A stretch of 64,000 nt of DNA from contig NZ_BLIN01000005.1 of the NCBI RefSeq assembly GCF_009811555.1, positions 2,923,501 through 2,987,500 of the forward strand, in the 5' to 3' direction. This stretch comes from Streptomyces caniferus. Its GTDB lineage: Bacteria; Actinomycetota; Actinomycetes; Streptomycetales; Streptomycetaceae. The translations under genes were made by a program, and so were the position numbers. Below are positions 593 through 36,075 of the stretch, in pieces (position 1 is the first letter of the stretch; each line of letters starts with the position of its first letter). The notes under the pieces are model-generated. The model worked only from the letters and a program-made list of their open reading frames with translations, was not told the DNA's origin and did no database searches.

Positions 593-1726
593 CTATCGCC
601 CGTTGAACGCATCCTTCAGACGCGAGAACAAGCCCTGCTGCCCCGGCTGGAACTGCCCCGTGGGCCGCTCCTCGCCGCGGAGCTTGGCCAGCCGCCGCAG
701 CAGCTCTTCCTGGTCGGGGTCGAGCTTGGACGGCGTCATCACCTCGACGTGGACGATCAGATCGCCCCGGCCGCCGCCGCGCAGATGGGTCACCCCGCGC
801 TGGTGCAGCGGGATCGACTGGCCGGACTGGGTGCCGGGCCGGACATCGATCTCCTCCACCCCGTCCAGCGTCTCCAGCGGGCACTTGGTGCCCAGCGCCG
901 CCGCCGTCATCGGGATGGTGACCGTGCAGTGCAGATCGTCGCCGCGCCGCTGGAAGACCTGGTGCGCGACCTCGTGGATCTCCACATAGAGATCACCGGC
1001 CGGGCCGCCGCCGGGGCCGACCTCGCCCTCGCCCGCGAGCTGGATGCGGGTGCCGTTGTCGACACCGGCCGGGATCTTGACGGTCAGCGTGCGGCGGGAG
1101 CGGATCCGGCCGTCGCCGGCGCACTCGGGGCACGGGGTCGGCACGACCGTGCCGAAGCCCTGGCACTGCGGGCACGGCCTGGACGTCATGACCTGGCCCA
1201 GGAAGGACCGGGTGACCTGCGAGACCTCACCGCGGCCGCGGCACATGTCACAGGTCTGCGCCGAGGTGCCGGGCGCCGCGCCCTCGCCCGTGCAGGTCGT
1301 ACAGACGACGGCGGTGTCGACCTGGATGTCCTTGGTCGTGCCGAAGGCCGCTTCGTTCAGCTCGATGTCGAGCCGGATCATGGCGTCCTGCCCGCGGCGG
1401 GTGCGCGAGCGCGGCCCGCGCTGCGACGCGGTGCCGAAGAAGGCGTCCATGATGTCGGAGAAGTTGCCGAAGCCCGCGCCGAAGCCCGCGCCCTGGCCGC
1501 CGTTGGCCTGCGAGAGCGGGTCGCCGCCGAGGTCGTAGACCTGCTTCTTCTGCGGGTCCGACAGCACCTCGTAAGCGGCGTTGATCTCCTTGAACCGCTC
1601 CTGGGTCTTCGGATCCGGGTTCACATCCGGGTGCAGCTCGCGCGCCAGGCGACGGAAGGCTTTCTTGATCTGGTCCTGCGAGGCGTCGCGGCCGACGCCG
1701 AGGACCGAGTAGTAGTCCGTGGCCAC
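593..1726 (-). CDS. dnaJ2: Type I J-domain chaperone DnaJ2
   Basis: A complete 377-residue type I DnaJ co-chaperone, which delivers unfolded proteins to DnaK and stimulates its ATPase in the cytoplasm. The J domain occupies residues 1-70 with HPD at 32-34, followed by a Gly/Phe-rich linker. The four-repeat zinc-binding region has CTTCTGEG, CDMCRGRG, CPQCQGFG and CPECAGDG, and then comes the C-terminal substrate-binding domain. The start is GTG at 1726, directly abutting the hrcA stop (TAA then GTG), so translation is probably coupled. Its position behind hrcA marks it as the second Streptomyces dnaJ, distinct from the copy in the dnaK operon. Expression should follow HrcA through the CIRCE element upstream of hrcA. 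Confidence 0.97.
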   Translation of the reverse strand: MATDYYSVLGVGRDASQDQIKKAFRRLARELHPDVNPDPKTQERFKEINAAYEVLSDPQKKQVYDLGGDPLSQANGGQGAGFGAGFGNFSDIMDAFFGTASQRGPRSRTRRGQDAMIRLDIELNEAAFGTTKDIQVDTAVVCTTCTGEGAAPGTSAQTCDMCRGRGEVSQVTRSFLGQVMTSRPCPQCQGFGTVVPTPCPECAGDGRIRSRRTLTVKIPAGVDNGTRIQLAGEGEVGPGGGPAGDLYVEIHEVAHQVFQRRGDDLHCTVTIPMTAAALGTKCPLETLDGVEEIDVRPGTQSGQSIPLHQRGVTHLRGGGRGDLIVHVEVMTPSKLDPDQEELLRRLAKLRGEERPTGQFQPGQQGLFSRLKDAFNGR

Positions 1727-2743
1727 TTACGACTCCGCGAGGATTTGTCCGACGTAACGTGCCACTGCGCGTACCGCTCCCATCGTTCCGGGGTAGTCCA
1801 TGCGGGTCGGTCCGACCACGCCGAGTTTGGCGACTGCCTCGTCGCCCGAACCGTAGCCGACCGTGACGACCGATGTGGACGCCAGGCCTTCATGGGCATT
1901 CTCATGCCCGATGCGTACGGTCATGCCCGAGTCCTTGGCCTCGCCGAGCAGCTTGAGCATCACCACATGCTCCTCGAGGGCCTCCAGCACCGGCCGGATG
2001 GTCAGGGGGAAATCGTGCCCGAAGCGGGTGAGATTGGCGGTGCCGCCGATCATCAGCCGTTCCTCGGTCTCTTCCACCAGAGTTTCCAGCAACACCGACA
2101 GCACTGTCGAGACCGTGCCGCGGTCGTCCTGCTCGAAGGACTCCGGGAGATCCTGCACCAACTGCGGCACATCCGCGAACCGGCGGCCGACGACCCTGCT
2201 GTTGAGCCGCGCCCGCAGATCCGCCAGGGACGTCTCGCCGAACGGCGCCTGGCAGTCGATGAGCCGCTGTTCGACCCGGCCGGTGTCCGTGATCAGGACG
2301 AGCATCAGCCGGGCCGGGGCCAGGGCCAGCAGCTCGACGTGCCGGACCGTGGACCGGGTCAGCGACGGATACTGCACGACGGCGACCTGCCGGGTCAGCT
2401 GCGCCAGCAGCCGGACCGTGCGGCCCACCACGTCGTCGAGGTCGACGGCGCCGTCCAGGAAATTCTGGATCGCCCGCCGTTCCGGGCTGGAGAGCGGCTT
2501 GACGCCGGCCAGCTTGTCGACGAACAGGCGGTAGCCCTTGTCGGTCGGGATCCGCCCGGCGCTGGTGTGCGGCTGGGCGATGAACCCCTCGTCCTCCAGG
2601 GCCGCCATGTCGTTGCGGACGGTGGCCGGGGAGACCCCGAGCCGGTGGCGTTCGGTGAGCGCCTTGGAGCCGACCGGCTCCTCCGTCCCGACGTAGTCCT
2701 GGACGATGGCGCGCAGCACCTCCAGCCTGCGTTCACTGAGCAT
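1727..2743 (-). CDS. hrcA: Heat-inducible transcription repressor HrcA
   Basis: HrcA is a winged-helix repressor that binds CIRCE operators and is titrated away on heat shock. The protein starting [18 protein letters not shown] has 338 residues. The helix-turn-helix includes [20 protein letters not shown], followed by the conserved [13 protein letters not shown] wing. A longer reading from an ATG at 2791 is open, but that codon lies inside the CIRCE operator. The ATG at 2743 has a good Shine-Dalgarno sequence (GGAGGT about eight bases upstream), so it is preferred. It forms a two-gene operon with dnaJ2 and is presumably autoregulated. Confidence 0.97.
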
Positions 2744-2784
2744 CCCGCGCACCTCCAGTCCGGCCGTCCGCCGTCTCGTCTCTC

Positions 2785-2811
2785 CTGGCACTCACCCGGG
2801 CCGAGTGCCAG
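2785..2811 (-). promoter_or_regulatory. CIRCE operator of hrcA-dnaJ2
   Basis: A perfect inverted repeat CTGGCACTC-N9-GAGTGCCAG lies 42 bases upstream of the hrcA start. Arm length, the nine-base spacer and the GCACTC/GAGTGC cores match CIRCE, the HrcA binding site. The outer bases are GC-shifted compared with the TTAGCACTC form of low-GC bacteria. This is the only CIRCE-like element I noticed in the window. Confidence 0.95.
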
Positions 2812-2907
2812 ACCTTGAGCCAGTGTACGGCCGGGTAGCACGGGCGCGGCAAGGGCGGCCGCGCGGAGTACTCACCCGATGACCGTGTTCGGTCGATCTG
2901 TCGGGCA

Positions 2908-2931
2908 ACGCTATCGCGATGGCGCTAGCGT
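2908..2931 (+). promoter_or_regulatory. Palindromic -10 region of the metallo-hydrolase gene, probably leaderless
   Basis: ACGCTATCGC and GCGCTAGCGT form ten-base arms around GATG with a single mismatch. The right arm contains TAGCGT, a good -10 hexamer (TANNNT), ending six bases before the ATG at 2938. No Shine-Dalgarno sequence is present, so transcription probably starts at the ATG. The palindrome overlaps the promoter and could be an operator; no clear -35 is seen. Confidence 0.5.
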
Positions 2932-2937
2932 CTCGGT

Positions 2938-3672
2938 ATGCGCACTACTTGGGAAGAGGCCGGTTGGGAACGACTCGGTGACGGTGTCGCCAGGCGCCGG
3001 ATGCCGGGCTGGGACGAGACGATCGGGGTGATCGCGGGGAGCACCGGGGTCATGATCGTCGACACCGGTGCGACCCTGCGCGACGGTGCGGATCTGCGTC
3101 GCGCGATCCGCGGTGTGCTGGGCCGGGAAGTGACGCATGTCGCGCTCACCCATCCGCATTTCGATCATGTCCTGGGCACGGCCGTCTTCTCCGGCGTCGA
3201 GGTGTTCGGCGCGGCCGGCCTGGGTGAGCTGCTCCGGCGCGACAAGGACGAGCTGCGGCGGTCCGCGGTGCGCCACGGCGTCGGCGCGGACGCCGCGGCG
3301 GAGGCCGCCGATCTGCTCGTCGCCCCGCACCACCACGTGCACGGCCAGCTGACCGTCGAGCTCGGCGACCGGCAGGTGCTGCTCGCCAACGTCGGCCCGG
3401 GGCACACCGCCCACGATCTGGCCGTCCTGGTGCCGGGCCGGCACGGGGAACCGGAGATCGTCTTCTGCGGCGATCTGGTCGAGGAGTCCGGCGAGCCCCA
3501 GGCGGGCCACGACGCGCTCCCCCAGCAGTGGCCCGGCGCGCTGGACCGGCTGCTGGCCCTCGGCGGCGAGGACGCGCGGTACGTTCCCGGGCATGGCGCC
3601 GTGGTGGACGCCGGCTTCGTACGGGCCCAACGCGAGGCCCTGGCCGCCCGTTTCGGCGTCGCCCCCGCCTGA
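2938..3672 (+). CDS. MBL-fold metallo-hydrolase
   Basis: A 244-residue protein of the metallo-beta-lactamase superfamily. The zinc-binding signature THPHFDHVLG lies near residues 66-75, a later GPGHTAHDLAVL supplies the next histidine, FCGDLVEESG the bridging aspartate, and PGHG near the C-terminus the last ligand, so the metal site looks complete. Such proteins hydrolyse thioesters, lactones or phosphodiesters; the substrate cannot be predicted. The gene is divergent from hrcA, with 194 bases between the starts. Its start is inferred from a -10 box six bases upstream rather than from a ribosome-binding site. A 32-bp tandem duplication covers its last codons and stop. Confidence 0.9.
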   Translation: MRTTWEEAGWERLGDGVARRRMPGWDETIGVIAGSTGVMIVDTGATLRDGADLRRAIRGVLGREVTHVALTHPHFDHVLGTAVFSGVEVFGAAGLGELLRRDKDELRRSAVRHGVGADAAAEAADLLVAPHHHVHGQLTVELGDRQVLLANVGPGHTAHDLAVLVPGRHGEPEIVFCGDLVEESGEPQAGHDALPQQWPGALDRLLALGGEDARYVPGHGAVVDAGFVRAQREALAARFGVAPA

Positions 3673-3714
3673 TCACCGCCCACTTCGGCGTCGTCCCCTC
3701 CTGACCACCGCCCG
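3651..3714 (+). repeat. 32-bp tandem duplication over the 3' end of the metallo-hydrolase gene
   Basis: The 32 bases at 3651-3682, which contain the final codons and TGA stop, are repeated with a few substitutions at 3683-3714. Both copies share TTCGGCGTCG, then CCTGA and CACCGCCC. The second copy retains an in-register TGA but is not translated. It looks like local slippage or a duplicated gene end. Confidence 0.8.
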
Positions 3715-3737
3715 CCCTCCCCGACGGAACAGGCCCC

Positions 3738-4571
3738 ATGCAGAGCAAGCGCTACAGCCCCGACCTCACCCCCTCCTGGAAGAAGCAGCGGCCCGCTCCC
3801 GAGGTGCCCGCCGATCCCGATCTGGTCGTCGAGGAGGTCACCTCGGGCTTCTGCGGCGCCGTGATCCGCTGCGAGAAGACGGCGCAGGGCCCGACGGTCA
3901 CCCTGGAGGACCGCTTCGGCAAGCACCGGGTCTTCCCCATGGAGCCGCGCGGCTTCCTCCTGGAGGGGCGGGTGGTCACGCTCGTACGCCCCCAGGGCAG
4001 GCCGGCGGCCACCGTTCCGGCGCGTACGGCATCGGGATCACTCGCCGTGCCCGGCGCCCGCGCACGGGTCGCCCGCGCCGGGCGCATCTATGTGGAGGGC
4101 CGGCACGACGCCGAGCTGGTCGAGCGGGTGTGGGGCGACGACCTGCGCATCGAGGGCGTGGTCGTGGAGTACCTGGAGGGCATCGACGACCTGCCCGCGA
4201 TCGTCCGCGGCTTCGCCCCGGGGCCGGACGCCCGTCTCGGCGTCCTCGTCGACCATCTCGTCCCCGGCTCGAAGGAGTCGCGGATCGCGGCCGGGGTGAC
4301 CGGGGAACATGCGCTGGTGGTGGGCCACCCCTACATCGACATCTGGGAGGCGGTGAAGCCGTCCTCGGTCGGGATCGCGGCCTGGCCGTCCGTCCCGCAC
4401 GGCCAGGACTGGAAGACGGGGGTGTGCCGGGCGCTGGGCTGGCCGGAGAACACCGGCGCCGCCTGGCAGCGGATCCTGTCCTGTGTGCGCTCCTACAAGG
4501 ACCTGGAACCGGCGCTGCTGGGGCGGGTGGAGGAGCTGATCGACTTCGTCACGGCCGGCGGTGCGGCCTGA
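3738..4571 (+). CDS. DUF3097 family protein
   Basis: A 277-residue protein recognisable as the actinobacterial DUF3097 family. The N-terminus reads MQSKRYSPDLTPSWKKQRP, a small beta-domain covers about residues 30-85, and a Toprim-like segment follows with IYVEGRHDAELVERVWG at about 115-131, then VEYLEGIDDL and GVLVDHLVPGSKES. The EGxxD...DH pattern resembles the metal-binding core of Toprim folds, which suggests a nucleic-acid enzyme, but no activity is established. It sits 65 bases after the metallo-hydrolase on the same strand. Its last 23 bases overlap the 3' end of the convergent Uma2 gene. Confidence 0.88.
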   Translation: MQSKRYSPDLTPSWKKQRPAPEVPADPDLVVEEVTSGFCGAVIRCEKTAQGPTVTLEDRFGKHRVFPMEPRGFLLEGRVVTLVRPQGRPAATVPARTASGSLAVPGARARVARAGRIYVEGRHDAELVERVWGDDLRIEGVVVEYLEGIDDLPAIVRGFAPGPDARLGVLVDHLVPGSKESRIAAGVTGEHALVVGHPYIDIWEAVKPSSVGIAAWPSVPHGQDWKTGVCRALGWPENTGAAWQRILSCVRSYKDLEPALLGRVEELIDFVTAGGAA

Positions 4572-5166
4572 CGTTGGGGAGGGTGCCGAATTCGCTGGTG
4601 TCCAAGTCGACGTCGAGCAGCGCCAACGGCACGGATTCGCCGAATTTACCGATCCGCTGAGCCCGGTAGTCAGCCTCCTCACCGCTGCCGACAGGCTCGG
4701 TGAACAGGACACATTGAGCCATGATGGGGTCGACTACGAGGTAGGCGGGAATCCCTCCCGCCGCGTAGATCGAGCGCTTTACGCCGTAATCACGGTCGAC
4801 GCTGTTCTTGGAGACGACCTCGACCAGCATCGTGATCAACTGAGCCGGCAGCAGCCGACCCGATTCCGGCCCCGCATCGCGCTCCAACACGACGAGGTCA
4901 GGCTGGGGCTCACTGGTCTCGCACAGCAGATCGATGTCCTGGGTCTGGAGACAGTCCCAGTTCTGGTCCGGGATCTGACGCAGAACCCTCAACACGATCC
5001 GGTTGTGGACCAAATCTGGCCCCGCCATCATCACGATTTCCCCCCGCAGAAGCTCCACCTTGAAGTCCTCGGGAACCTCCAGGCTCTCGAAGAACTTCAC
5101 CATGTTGCTCGTGGTCGGCTCGATATCCACGTTGCCCGTGGTCGGTCGGTCATCCACAGCGGTCAT
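4549..5166 (-). CDS. Uma2 family endonuclease-fold protein
   Basis: A 205-residue protein of the Uma2 (DUF820) family with a restriction-endonuclease-like fold. The nuclease core is visible as VELLRGEIVMMAG, then PQPDLVVLE and MLVEVVSKNSVDRDYGVKR, giving the PD-...-ExV pattern with a downstream lysine. IPAYLVVDP follows. The ATG at 5166 is chosen because GGAGG lies nine bases upstream; an upstream ATG at 5184 would place that sequence inside the gene. AT content is visibly higher than in the neighbours, consistent with horizontal acquisition, and these genes are highly multiplied in Streptomyces. Real substrates are unknown. Its stop lies within the convergent DUF3097 gene. Confidence 0.88.
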   Translation of the reverse strand: MTAVDDRPTTGNVDIEPTTSNMVKFFESLEVPEDFKVELLRGEIVMMAGPDLVHNRIVLRVLRQIPDQNWDCLQTQDIDLLCETSEPQPDLVVLERDAGPESGRLLPAQLITMLVEVVSKNSVDRDYGVKRSIYAAGGIPAYLVVDPIMAQCVLFTEPVGSGEEADYRAQRIGKFGESVPLALLDVDLDTSEFGTLPNVRPHRRP

Positions 5167-5266
5167 CTCCGTGGTCCTCCACATCACGCCGCGTGCATTT
5201 GGCAGCAGCCTAGGGAGAGCGTAGGCAGGCGGGCACCGGACCCGCATCGGTTCACTCGTTCGAGCA

Positions 5267-6499
5267 TCAGTCCACCAGATCCCGCACCACCGCGTCCGCC
5301 AGCAGCCGCCCCCGGAGCGTCAGCACGGCGCGCCCCGCCTCGTACGGCCCGGCCTCCAGCAGCCCGTCGGCCAGTGCTCGGGAGGCCGCCCGCGCCCCCG
5401 CCGGGGCGAGGATGTCCAGCGGGCAGCCGTCCGAGAGCCGCAGTTCCAGCAGGATGCGTTCGACGCGGCGGTCCTCGTCCGAGAGGAGTTCGCGGCCGGC
5501 GCCCGGGGAGCGGCCTTCGGTGAGGGCCTGGGCGTAGGCGCCGGGGTGTTTGACGTTCCACCAGCGGACGCCGCCGACGTGGCTGTGGGCGCCGGGGCCC
5601 GCGCCCCACCAGTCGGCGCCGGTCCAGTACAGCTCGTTGTGGCGGCAGCGGGCGGCGTCGGTGGTGGCCCAGTTGGAGACCTCGTACCAGGTGAAACCGG
5701 CAGCGGCGAGGCGTTCGTCGGCGATGAGGTAGCGGTCGGCGTGCACATCGTCGTCGGTCATCGGGACCTCGCCGCGGCGGATCCGGCGGGCCAGCTGCGT
5801 GCCCTCCTCGACGATCAGGGCGTAGGCGGAGACGTGGTCGGGGCCGGCCCCGATCGCGGCGTCCAGGGAGGCGCGCCAGTCGTCGTCGGTCTCGCCCGGG
5901 GTGCCGTAGATCAGATCGAGGTTGACGTGCGCGAAGCCGGCCGCGCGGGCCTCGGCGACACAGGCCTCGGGGCGGCCGGGGGTGTGCGTACGGTCGAGGA
6001 TCTTCAGGACGTGCTGCCGGGCGCTCTGCATGCCGAAGGAGACCCGGTTGAAGCCGCCCGCCAGCAGCTCGTCGAGGTAGCGGGGGTCGACGGACTCCGG
6101 GTTCGCCTCGGTGGTGATCTCGGCGCCGGGCGCCAGGCCGAACTCCTCGCGGATCGCCGCCAGCATCCGGGCGAGGTCGGCGGCGGGCAGCAGGGTCGGG
6201 GTGCCGCCGCCGACGAAGACCGTCTCGACCGGGCGGGGGTCGTCGCCCAGCACCTTGCGGGCCAGCCGGATCTCGTCCACGACGGTGTCGGCGTAGTTGT
6301 CGCGGGAGGCCAGGGCGCCACCGGAACCGCGCAGCTCGCTCGCGGTGTAGGTGTTGAAGTCGCAGTAGCCGCAGCGGGTCGCGCAGTACGGCACATGCAG
6401 ATAGAAGCCGAGGGGCCGGCCGGCGGCACCGGCCGGTGTATGACCGGGCAGCGCCCCGTCCTCGGGCATCGGCTCACCATCGGGCAGTGCGGAAGGCAT
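5267..6499 (-). CDS. hemW: Radical SAM heme chaperone HemW
   Basis: About 410 residues, formerly annotated as oxygen-independent coproporphyrinogen oxidase HemN. The radical SAM cluster motif is CATRCGYC with cysteines near residues 39, 43 and 46. It is followed by VFVGGGTPTLL and ITTEANPESV, both typical for the HemN/HemW group, and by the HemN C-terminal domain. The short N-terminal extension before the first cysteine fits HemW, which binds heme and inserts it into respiratory proteins. An ATG nine bases further upstream (6508) is also possible. It lies 53 bases downstream of the SpoIIE-type gene on the same strand. Confidence 0.92.
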   Translation of the reverse strand: MPSALPDGEPMPEDGALPGHTPAGAAGRPLGFYLHVPYCATRCGYCDFNTYTASELRGSGGALASRDNYADTVVDEIRLARKVLGDDPRPVETVFVGGGTPTLLPAADLARMLAAIREEFGLAPGAEITTEANPESVDPRYLDELLAGGFNRVSFGMQSARQHVLKILDRTHTPGRPEACVAEARAAGFAHVNLDLIYGTPGETDDDWRASLDAAIGAGPDHVSAYALIVEEGTQLARRIRRGEVPMTDDDVHADRYLIADERLAAAGFTWYEVSNWATTDAARCRHNELYWTGADWWGAGPGAHSHVGGVRWWNVKHPGAYAQALTEGRSPGAGRELLSDEDRRVERILLELRLSDGCPLDILAPAGARAASRALADGLLEAGPYEAGRAVLTLRGRLLADAVVRDLVD

Positions 6500-27797: not shown

Positions 27798-30719
27798 CTA
27801 CGCCGGAACGATGTTCACCAGCTTCGGCGCCCGGACGATGACCTTCCGGATGCCCGCGCCGTTCAGCGCCGCGACCACGGCCGGCTCCGCCAGGGCCGTC
27901 GCCTCCAGGTCCGCGTCGGAGATCGACGGGGCGACCTCCAGGCGGGCCTTGACCTTGCCCTTGATCTGCACGACGCAGGTCACGGTCTCGTCGACGACAT
28001 ACGCCGGGTCGGCCACCGGGAAGTCCGCGTGCACCACGGTGTCCGTGTGGCCCAGCTTGCGCCACAGCTCCTCGGCGATGTGCGGCGCCAGCGGGGCGAT
28101 CAGCAGCACCAGCCGCTCGGCGACCGTGCGCGGGACGGCGCCGCCCGCCTTGGTCAGGTGGTTGTTCAGCTCGGTCACCTTGGCGATGGCGGTGTTGAAG
28201 CGCAGGTTCGCCATGTCCTGGGTGACGCCGTCGATCGCCTTGTGCAGGGCCCGCAGGGTGGCCTCGTCGGGCTCGGTGTCGACGACGGTGACCTCGCCGG
28301 TCGCCTCGTCGACGACATTGCGCCACAGGCGCTGCAGCAGGCGGTACTGGCCGACGACGGCCCGGGTGTCCCACGGCCGCGAGACGTCCAGCGGCCCCAT
28401 CGCCATCTCGTACAGGCGCAGGGTGTCCGCGCCGTACTCCACGCAGATCTCGTCGGGGGTGACGGCGTTCTTCAGGGACTTGCCCATCTTGCCCAGGACA
28501 CGGCTGACCTTCTCGCCCTGGTAGTAGTAGCCGCCGTCGCGCTCCTCGACCTCGGCGGCCGGGACGGCGATGCCGCGGCTGTCCCGGTAGACGAAGGCCT
28601 GGATCATGCCCTGGTTGTACAGCTTGTGGAACGGCTCGGAGGACGCGACGTGTCCCAGGTCGTGCAGCACCTTGGACCAGAAGCGCGCGTACAGCAGGTG
28701 CAGCACGGCGTGCTCCGCGCCGCCCACGTACAGGTCGACGCCGCCGGCCGGCTGACCGTCGCGCGGCCCCATCCAGTACTGCTCGATGTCCGGGGCGACC
28801 AGCGCGTCGGCGTTGCCGGGGTCCAGGTAGCGCATCTCGTACCAGCACGAACCCGCCCAGTTGGGCATGGTGTTGGTCTCGCGGCGGTAGCGCTTGATGC
28901 CGTTGCCGTCGCCCAGGTCCAGGTCGACATGGACCCAGTCCTCGTTGCGGGACAGCGGGGTCTCCGGCTGGGTGTCGGCGTCGTCCGGGTCGAAGGTGCG
29001 CGGGGAGTAGTCCTCGACCTCGGGCAGCTCCAGCGGCAGCATCGACTCGGGCAGCGCGTGCGCCACGCCGTCCTCGTCGTAGACGATCGGGAACGGCTCG
29101 CCCCAGTAGCGCTGCCGGCTGAACAGCCAGTCGCGCAGCCGGAAGTTGACGGTGCCCTCGCCGATGCCCTCGGCGGCCAGCCAGTCGGTGATCTTCGCCT
29201 TGCCCTCGGTCACCCCCAGGCCGTCCAGCGAGATGGCGGCGCTCGACGAGTTCACGATCTTCGCGTCGTACGAGGCGAAGGCGTCGTCCCAGGTCGACGG
29301 GTCGGTGCCGCGGTCGTCCGACGGCTCGACGACGCAGCGCATCGGCAGCTCGAAGGCGCGGGCGAAGGCGAAGTCACGGCTGTCGTGCGCGGGCACGGCC
29401 ATGATCGCGCCGGTGCCGTAGCCCATCAGGACGTAGTCGGCGATGAAGACCGGGACCGGCTCGCCGCTGACCGGGTTGGTCGCGAAGGCGCCGGTGAACA
29501 CGCCCGTCTTGTCCTTGGCCTCGGCCTGCCGCTCGACGTCCGACTTGGAGGCGGCCTGCTTGCGGTAGGCGGCGACGGCGTCGGCCGGGGTGGCGTGCCC
29601 GCCGGTCCAGACGTCGTGGGTGCCCTCGGGCCAGGCGTCGGGGACGATCGGTCCGGTGCCGTTCTCGGCGCCGGCGACCAGCGGGTGCTCGGGCGCCAGC
29701 ACCATGTACGTGGCGCCGAACAGGGTGTCCTGACGGGTGGTGAAGACGGTGATCTTCTCGTCGCCCACCGGGAAGTCGACCCGGGCGCCCTCGGAGCGGC
29801 CGATCCAGTTGCGCTGCTGCAGCTTGATGGCCTCCGGCCAGTCCAGCGCGTCCAGGTCGTTCAGCAGCCGGTCGGCGTAGGCGGTGATGCGCATGTTCCA
29901 CTGGCGCAGCTTGGCCTTGAAGACCGGGTAGTTGCCGCGCTCGGAGCGGCCGTCGGCGGTGACCTCCTCGTTGGCCAGCACCGTGCCCAGCCCGGGGCAC
30001 CAGTTGACCGGCGAGTCGGAGGCGTACGCCAGGCGGTACTCGCCCAGGATGTTGGCCCGCTCGATGGGGCTCAGCGCGGCCCAGGGGCGGCCGTCGGGGG
30101 TCTGCCGGGTGCCGGCCTCGAACTGGGCGACCAGGGTGTCGACCGGGCGGGCCGCGTCCGCCTCCGGGTCGTACCAGGAGTTGAAGATCTGCAGGAAGAT
30201 CCACTGGGTCCACTTGTAGTACGCCGGGTCGATCGTCTCGACCGAGCGGCGCTGGTCGTGGCCCAGGCCCAGGCGGCGCAGCTGACGCCGCATGTTCACG
30301 ATGTTGGCCTCGGTGGAGACCCGCGGGTGCGTGCCGGTCTGCACCGCGTACTGCTCGGCGGGCAGGCCGAAGGCGTCGAAGCCCAGGGTGTGCAGGACGT
30401 TGTGGCCCGTCATGCGCTGGTGGCGGGCGTAGACGTCGGTGGCGATGAAGCCCAGCGGATGGCCGACGTGCAGGCCGGCACCCGACGGGTAGGGGAACAT
30501 GTCCATGATGAACTTCTTGGGGCGGGCCACCAGCGCGGCGTCGCCGGCCAGCTCCCCGCTGGGGTTCGGGGCCTCATAGGTCCCGTCGGTCTCCCAGAAG
30601 TCCTGCCAGCGGGCCTCGATGTCGGCGGCCAGCGCTGCCGTGTAGCGGTGCGGCGCTGCCGTCTCGGCGGGGGCACCTCCCGCGCTTTCGGCAGCGGGGG
30701 AGGGGGTCGTCTCGCTCAT
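27798..30719 (-). CDS. leuS: Leucyl-tRNA synthetase
   Basis: A 973-residue class I aminoacyl-tRNA synthetase charging tRNA-Leu. The HIGH-type motif appears in [17 protein letters not shown]. The editing domain includes [19 protein letters not shown], and the KMSKS loop reads [15 protein letters not shown], with Gly for the first Ser. The C-terminal anticodon-binding domain completes the protein. The ATG at 30719 has GGAG eight bases upstream; a longer frame to 30776 lacks this and crosses leader sequences. A leader peptide with three consecutive leucine codons and a U-tailed terminator hairpin lies upstream, implying attenuation by leucyl-tRNA supply. The gene is monocistronic. Confidence 0.97.
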
Positions 30720-30785
30720 CCTCAAAGCTCCATCGATCGTCTCTGCCTGCGGAAACGCGCCAAGAATCCCCGGCACGCCGGAAAC

Positions 30786-30810
30786 AAAAAGACCCCTCGC
30801 ACAGGAGGGG
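30786..30810 (-). terminator. Attenuator terminator in the leuS leader
   Basis: On the minus strand CCCCTC-CTGTGC-GAGGGG is followed by TCTTTTTG, a true intrinsic terminator with U-tract. It lies between the leader peptide stop (30855) and the leuS start (30719). U-tailed hairpins are otherwise rare in this window. Confidence 0.8.
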
Positions 30811-30824
30811 ACGCCGCGCCGATT

Positions 30825-30848
30825 CCGACCGGATCTGTGATCCGTCGG
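30825..30848 (-). promoter_or_regulatory. Leader hairpin preceding the leuS attenuator
   Basis: CCGACGGATC, loop ACA, then GATCCGGTCGG on the minus strand form ten base pairs with one bulged G. It lies seven bases after the leader-peptide stop codon and 14 bases before the terminator stem, the position of a pause or competing hairpin in attenuators. Confidence 0.6.
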
Positions 30849-30854
30849 TACTGA

Positions 30855-30893
30855 TCAGCGCGGCCCGCTAAGCAGAAGGCGTACGGCACGCAT
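30855..30893 (-). CDS. leuS leader peptide
   Basis: A 12-codon frame encoding MRAVRLLLSGPR then TGA. The three consecutive leucine codons are CTT CTG CTT; CTT is rare in Streptomyces, so the ribosome should stall when charged tRNA-Leu is short. There is no Shine-Dalgarno sequence. TACCCT lies six bases before the ATG, so the message may start at the ATG. The frame is followed by a hairpin and a U-tailed terminator before leuS, the classical arrangement of amino-acid attenuators. It is too short for automatic gene finders. No T-box consensus is seen. Confidence 0.7.
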   Translation of the reverse strand: MRAVRLLLSGPR

Positions 30894-33365: not shown

Positions 33366-33438
33366 TGGAGCTAAGGAGAATTGAACTCCTGACCTCCTGC
33401 ATGCCATGCAGGCGCTCTACCAACTGAGCTATAGCCCC
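33366..33438 (-). tRNA. tRNA-Ala (anticodon GGC), copy 1
   Basis: A 73-base cloverleaf without encoded CCA. The acceptor stem GGGGCTA/TAGCTCC contains the G3-U70 pair that defines tRNA-Ala. The D-arm reads GCTCAGTTGGTAGAGC. The anticodon stem CCTGC/GCAGG encloses ATGGCAT with anticodon GGC, and the T-loop is TTCAATT. It reads GCC and GCT codons, the first being the main alanine codon in high-GC genomes. An identical copy lies at 36003. Confidence 0.97.
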
Positions 33439-36002: not shown

Positions 36003-36075
36003 TGGAGCTAAGGAGAATTGAACTCCTGACCTCCTGCATGCCATGCAGGCGCTCTACCAACTGAGCTATAGCCCC
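36003..36075 (-). tRNA. tRNA-Ala (anticodon GGC), copy 2
   Basis: All 73 bases are identical to the copy at 33366-33438, including the G3-U70 pair and anticodon GGC, and CCA is not encoded. The flanking sequences differ, including unrelated terminator hairpins. Confidence 0.97.

Follow-up and report, generated by a model that had tools for sequence, protein, structure and literature searches.

How is leuS, the gene for leucine--tRNA ligase, controlled in Streptomyces caniferus? In the 64,000-nucleotide stretch that we analyzed (hereafter the window), leuS is preceded by a small open reading frame with consecutive leucine codons, by hairpins and by a U-tailed terminator, which a first-pass annotation took for classical attenuation. 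Related proposals exist. The available portion of PMC1262725 predicts classical candidate attenuators with an antiterminator before leuS of S. coelicolor and S. avermitilis, and an excerpt of PMC8079986 places leuL2 (MRAVRLLLSEPR) upstream of leuS in S. lividans TK24, where it is annotated as leaderless, with a hairpin and a uridine stretch after it. The core claim of a leuS attenuator is already in print for these three Streptomyces species. A search of open-licence papers returned no further work that we recognized as testing leuS control, and the leuS leader goes unmentioned in the accessible parts of PMC4833913 and PMC9413887. New here are the breadth of the element, the covariation of its main stem (P1), the lack of a conserved antiterminator overlapping the terminator, the occurrence before other branched-chain genes, and the leuS/leuA codon contrast.

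A conserved leader and terminator upstream of leuS

The leader frame with CTT CTG CTT, the hairpins and the U-tailed terminator of the annotation are all present at 30786-30893. The order on the minus strand is an extended -10 element, a 12-codon ORF, the P2 hairpin, the terminator with its T run, and leuS. The arms of P1 flank P2:

30900..30910, minus strand: extended -10 element TGCGGTACCCT; last T 7 nt 5' of the leader ATG, a leaderless-type spacing
30855..30893, minus strand: leader ORF MRAVRLLLSGPR*, 12 codons; present in 119/119 same-genus loci
30870..30878, minus strand: control codons CTT CTG CTT; the third is CTT in 118/119 same-genus loci
30854..30864, minus strand: P1 5' arm GCCGCGCTGAT, from the last base of codon 10 to the first base past the stop; compensatory changes
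30825..30848, minus strand: P2 accessory hairpin, between the P1 arms; covariation in the genus, missing in several relatives
30813..30823, minus strand: P1 3' arm ATCGGCGCGGC; compensatory changes
30793..30810, minus strand: P3 terminator hairpin, from a terminator scan; stem in 119/119 same-genus loci
30783..30792, minus strand: U-rich tail TCTTTTTGTT, from the terminator scan and genus comparison
27798..30719, minus strand: leuS, leucine--tRNA ligase (TIGR00396); 74 Leu codons, all CTG

The leader reads ATG CGT GCC GTA CGC CTT CTG CTT AGC GGG CCG CGC TGA (30893-30855). P2 begins at the seventh base past its stop and has ten pairs with one bulged G (30848-30825), and P3 is CCCCTC-CTGTGC-GAGGGG (30810-30793). 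A terminator scan over 1.5 kb found 2 sites, compared with 0.2 in shuffles; the second is weak and lies within the leader. The downstream gene scores 881 bits against TIGR00396 (cut-off 548) and starts with the ATG at 30719. There was no Rfam T-box match in the window, where the gathering score was reached solely by two tRNAs. These two tRNA genes lie on the minus strand at 33366-33438 and 36003-36075, and both score 70 bits in Rfam.

We searched 121 same-genus genomes with the LeuS N-terminus and examined 119 upstream regions, omitting G001 and G045, in which the LeuS start was unusable. This alignment, which the annotation had proposed as a check, recovered the leader in 119/119 loci, always ending CCG CGC TGA, and the terminator stem in every one. 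The Leu codons are CTT CTG CTT in 107 loci, CTC CTG CTT in 10 and other combinations in 2. The -10 element TA...T, with T at -12, A at -11 and T at -7 from the ATG, is kept in 116 of the 119. Retention of leader, stem and terminator in all 119 loci goes far beyond chance. The locus thus combines a conserved ORF with Leu codons and predicted translation, an intrinsic terminator between leader and leuS, and a P1 5' arm that spans the ORF end and stop, so that its pairing could be gated by a ribosome. It also shares the gene, a near-identical leader peptide and the terminator with the published Streptomyces leuS attenuators. The S. lividans leuL2 peptide differs from that of the window by one residue and is its orthologue; it too is leaderless, and a hairpin and U stretch separate it from leuS. 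The excerpted text of PMC8079986 describes the hairpin without stem analysis. A transcription start downstream of 30855, which the annotation regarded as fatal to its reading, is contradicted for this leaderless orthologue by the same excerpt.

The leader extends well beyond the genus. It occurs in all 67 loci of a family set, which includes 12 same-genus loci (5 from genus-set genomes) and for which 55/66 other-genus genomes were examined. Variants are few: LVL in L152, two Leu codons in L180 and L185, and a PH* ending in L144, L145 and L148. Family and class loci were gathered by an exact match to GCCGCGCTGA, and the three PH* loci were added to the pair-type count below. The constancy of this arm in the family and class loci therefore follows from how the collection was built; in the genus set it was not a collection criterion, yet it is present in 119/119. 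A covariance model, R1, was made from 55 loci, some of them from genomes that it later matches (L115 was left out). R1 matches 60/60 genomes of the order and, at E up to 0.01, 146/325 genomes of the class, which belong to 26 families and 66/121 genera. Among 59 matching non-genus genomes (handles to G330, inspected by eye), the match lies within about 1 kb upstream of LeuS in 50 and before cimA in 3, and 6 are unplaced.

A pattern scan of named class genomes yielded 33 loci, including Jiangella, Actinopolymorpha, Kineosporia, Amycolatopsis, Goodfellowiella, Actinocrinis, Serinicoccus and Lapillicoccus. A LeuS motif lies no more than 700 nt downstream in 30 of them; L229 and L243 end before the motif, and the LeuS match of L245 is farther downstream (G213). 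Actinopolymorpha pittospori (L239) has two tandem leuS genes of different type (702-3209 and 3529-5832), each with its own leader, P1 and terminator. The LeuS reading frame of L216 contains one internal TGA. R1 found no additional match at E < 1 in the window's own genome. A second match in G185 (L298, E 0.005) is a terminator after a tRNA and was attributed to chance.

Stem P1 and the search for an antiterminator

P1 is an 11-pair stem between nt 30-40 of the leader and a segment that ends 0-2 nt ahead of the terminator stem. The annotation had suggested that GCCGCGC in the leader could pair with GCGCGGC. That pairing is real and forms the best conserved helix of the element, and the accompanying reservation about its position was apt: the conserved stem adjoins the terminator without overlapping it. 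The 0-2 nt spacing between P1 and P3 holds in 119 genus, 64 family and 41 class loci (the misplaced L115 among them, and L229, at a contig end, excluded).

We then compared pair types in P1, leaving out L155 and L156, whose stem is bulged. At nt 35, G-C is replaced by A-T in three loci, where CGC in the leader became CAC (PR* to PH*) and C in the other arm became T. The non-coding position nt 40 forms standard pairs in 92/119 genus, 61/65 family and 34/41 class loci; TA is found mainly in the genus, CG mainly in the family and class, and GC in ten loci. Across 55 diverse sequences, 95.8% of the cells pair; shifting the partner by 1-3 columns lowers this to 40-53%. Column shuffles gave 94.3%, and 95.8% was reached in 0 of 500. 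P1 is a covarying stem with compensatory changes. Its retention merely for a peptide ending PR* is unlikely, given the matching change in the other arm of the three PH* loci, and an extension of P1 through codon 10 into the terminator was ruled out by the lack of covariation in codon 10 and the linker. The ten-pair hairpin of the annotation (P2) exists where it was placed and covaries within the genus, but several relatives lack it and it is not part of the core.

Antiterminators were sought as helices in 85-90% of 224 loci, by folding with ribosome-masked segments, and against shuffles. P1 was the sole conserved long-range helix of more than four pairs in the 224 loci. No antiterminator overlapping the terminator was conserved beyond the genus in the family and class scans, which use fixed registers, are blind to shifting pairing and also miss P3 where its loop or gap varies. 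Within the genus alone, short segments are complementary to P3: six pairs between GCGCGG and CTGTGC (about -6.5 kcal/mol) and five between CCTTC and GAGGG. Neither was retained when the family and the class were scanned. The P1 3' arm pairs no more strongly with the P3 5' half and loop than with shuffled loops, and against shuffled arms the mean z of the leuS sets lay between -0.4 and +0.9 (L115 left out). In genus folding, the mean P3 probability was 0.87 without a ribosome, 0.88 with a ribosome at the first Leu codon, 0.87 at the third and 0.81 at the stop; in the last state it fell below 0.5 in 12/119 loci. Folding gave no sign of mutual exclusion between P1 and P3.

The E. coli trp-type attenuator combines leader codons, a stem that the ribosome can mask and a terminator. 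All three are also present at leuS, but E. coli uses a 2:3 antiterminator, whereas at leuS the stem adjoins the terminator and we found no conserved antiterminator sharing a strand with it, the one candidate being weak and confined to the genus. With P1 lying clear of the terminator and no antiterminator found to be shared outside the genus, the textbook 2:3/3:4 scheme is unsupported and, as far as these tests reach, the leuS attenuator is not textbook attenuation. The elements that the available text of PMC1262725 reports are alike in gene, genus, leader peptide, stem and terminator, but are termed classical with an antiterminator, in contrast to the non-overlapping stem conserved here. Attenuation by a leucine leader is the part of the annotation that is well supported, by conservation, promoter, covariation, elements before other genes and two papers; the word classical is not, since P1 only abuts the terminator and the search turned up no competing helix that relatives outside the genus share. 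For actinobacterial leuA, the same portion of PMC1262725 describes a LEU element, a pseudoknot in which the Shine-Dalgarno box of leuA takes part; compared by description, it has the leucine leader peptide and the actinobacterial setting in common with leuS but differs in that pseudoknot.

Other branched-chain genes and leucine codon usage

R1 also matches before other genes. Ten loci from another family of the class lie before citramalate synthase (cimA) and have Ile codons in leaders of the VLIIVRRAG* type (L281-L286, L289, L294, L296 and L297). L281 is a citramalate synthase by TIGR00977 (635 bits, cut-off 450), eight further loci share its N-terminus, and L286 is read in another frame. P1 has different arms in these elements, with compensatory C-G to T-A changes in 4/10. 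A leuS leader from the family of the cimA loci, L290, has different P1 arms and a different terminator. Single matches precede 2-isopropylmalate synthase (L292; LeuA at 1106-2644, minus strand; leader MKHLLLIESARH*) and a threonine ammonia-lyase-like (ilvA-like) gene (L295; ORF 1423-2349, minus strand; leader MPQHIMIIS*), the latter with TIGR01127 as its best hit at 306 bits, below the cut-off of 379. The leaders before cimA, leuA and the ilvA-like gene thus carry Ile or Leu codons that fit the gene. A literature search on the cimA leader matched work on Methanothermobacter.

The annotation had called CTT rare, and it accounts for 7 of the 1334 Leu codons (0.5%) in 32 window ORFs, compared with two of three in the leader. 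leuS uses CTG for 74/74 Leu codons; its Val codons are mostly GTC. The window and 40 stretches of this genome, each 20 kb long, supplied 474 predicted genes in which CTC and CTG together number 15 or more, for a test that was prompted by leuS and for which leuA, ilv/leu and ribosomal stretches were selected for content. The most CTC-poor gene was leuS (0 CTC:74 CTG, binomial 4e-15), followed by leuA (1:36, 1e-6). The leuA gene lies at 12697-14472 of L309, minus strand, and its leader MRFGLLLLSCRGEGL uses CTT CTC CTT. Over 30 Streptomyces, the first part of leuS contains 45 CTC, 1260 CTG and 0 CTT. Their leuA genes have 133 CTC and 979 CTG, compared with 777 and 924 in 87 ORFs that neighbour leuA, and the leaders before leuA in the same 30 use CTT and CTC.

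High expression is unsupported as a cause of the CTC depletion in this genome, where EF-Tu (15 CTC:11 CTG) and EF-G (21:25; both identified by eye at the N-terminus) use both codons. Nor is depletion general to branched-chain genes, as judged from leuB (17:19), cimA (20:29), leuD (3:16) and leuC (5:15, a short ORF). In the wider class, leuS has 0-2 CTC codons in five named loci (Jiangella, Amycolatopsis, Goodfellowiella, Actinocrinis and one Kineosporia locus), 11-22 despite a leader in Serinicoccus, Lapillicoccus and Actinopolymorpha, and 10-41 in eight class loci without a detected leader. Compared without a tree, a class-wide tie of CTC depletion to the leader is only suggestive.

One tRNA, with anticodon GAG, reads both CUC and CUU. 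We saw no tRNA-Leu in the 40 genome stretches scanned. Selective charging of tRNA isoacceptors has reportedly been described by Elf et al. in 2003. The accessible part of PMC1183508, worked out for E. coli, uses it to explain synonymous codon choice in leaders; it would likewise explain codon choice here, where a CTT leader faces a CTG-only leuS and a CTG-rich leuA.

Models for the control of leuS

The leader and terminator probably form a leucine-sensing switch before leuS, judging from sequence comparison. Our preferred reading, which we hold with slightly better than even confidence, is a ribosome-gated transcription attenuator in which P1 opposes P3. Transcription would begin at the leader ATG, a start site read here from the promoter spacing, and a ribosome would load onto the 5' end. 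With ample charged tRNA-Leu, the ribosome would reach the UGA and cover the P1 5' arm, P3 would form and leuS would be off. When the tRNA reading CUU and CUC is uncharged, the ribosome would stall on the leader. A ribosome footprint extends about 15 nt from the P site. Stalled on the first Leu codon, the ribosome would cover the ORF to about nt 28, leaving P1 (nt 30-40) free to form. P1 against the terminator foot would then block closure of P3 in the RNA polymerase exit channel, and leuS would be transcribed. This direction of control would suit a synthetase, which is expected to be induced by starvation, so that P1 should oppose the terminator; the leuS mRNA would remain translatable when the CUC/CUU-reading tRNA is uncharged because leuS has no CUC or CUU codons. 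The constant contact of P1 with the terminator foot suggests the steric block, a step that we put at somewhat below even chances. Three observations run against the preferred model. The P3 shift with a ribosome at the stop (0.81 vs 0.87) is small and opposite to its prediction, about half of the P1 5' arm would be hidden beneath a ribosome at the last CUU, and other complementary segments touch P3 within the genus.

Some of these observations would suit the same attenuator with P1 acting in the other sense, aiding termination in the manner of trp 1:2 or a pause hairpin, so that a stall at the last CUU would mask the start of P1 and termination would fail. Conservation of the sensor codons is indeed highest at the last Leu codon, which lies 5 nt from P1; the gap is similarly short in the cimA elements (4 nt), and P3 is slightly weaker with P1 fully masked. 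A pyrimidine-G step lies 9-12 nt past P1 in 51 of 52 distinct sequences (L002-L250 terminator loops, a count without a chance control). Such a step at such a spacing is as found for pause hairpins. However, P1 would also be hidden by a ribosome at the stop, leaving little difference between the two states unless release were fast, and we reason that a helix at the terminator foot in the exit channel is more apt to hinder than to help. We consider an aiding role for P1 rather unlikely, if the strongest competitor among those weighed here. Textbook attenuation, with the freed P1 3' arm pairing with the 5' part of the terminator as antiterminator, is how the available text of PMC1262725 presents leuS, and the GCGCGG/CTGTGC pairing could form in the genus at about -6.5 kcal/mol. 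That pairing was not conserved in the family and class scan, whose fixed registers would miss a shifting one, and it is no stronger than with shuffled loops or arms, which makes this scheme improbable.

The leader could also be a bystander, with a partial terminator past a small ORF that is constitutive or otherwise controlled and senses no leucine. Leucine control at leuS itself is deduced from sequence features, and in the portion of PMC1262725 available, changing codons of the ilvB leader in S. coelicolor was without effect. Retention of the control codons across families and the gene-fitting codons of the elements before other genes speak against such a terminator, and we regard it as very improbable.

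Together, these results are consistent with a tentative wider picture, in which a non-textbook attenuator of actinomycetes, whose ribosome-gated helix adjoins the terminator without pairing with it, serves leuS, leuA, cimA and ilvA-type genes and, in Streptomyces, is coupled to removal of CTC and CTT from leuS and leuA. If so, sensor and targets would rely on different tRNA-Leu species. The leuS attenuator becomes part of a switch design that spans 26 families of the class and whose P1 stem is ill-suited to the usual antiterminator scheme, and the CTT leader before a CTG-only leuS offers a simple test case for tRNA-isoacceptor sensing in actinomycetes.
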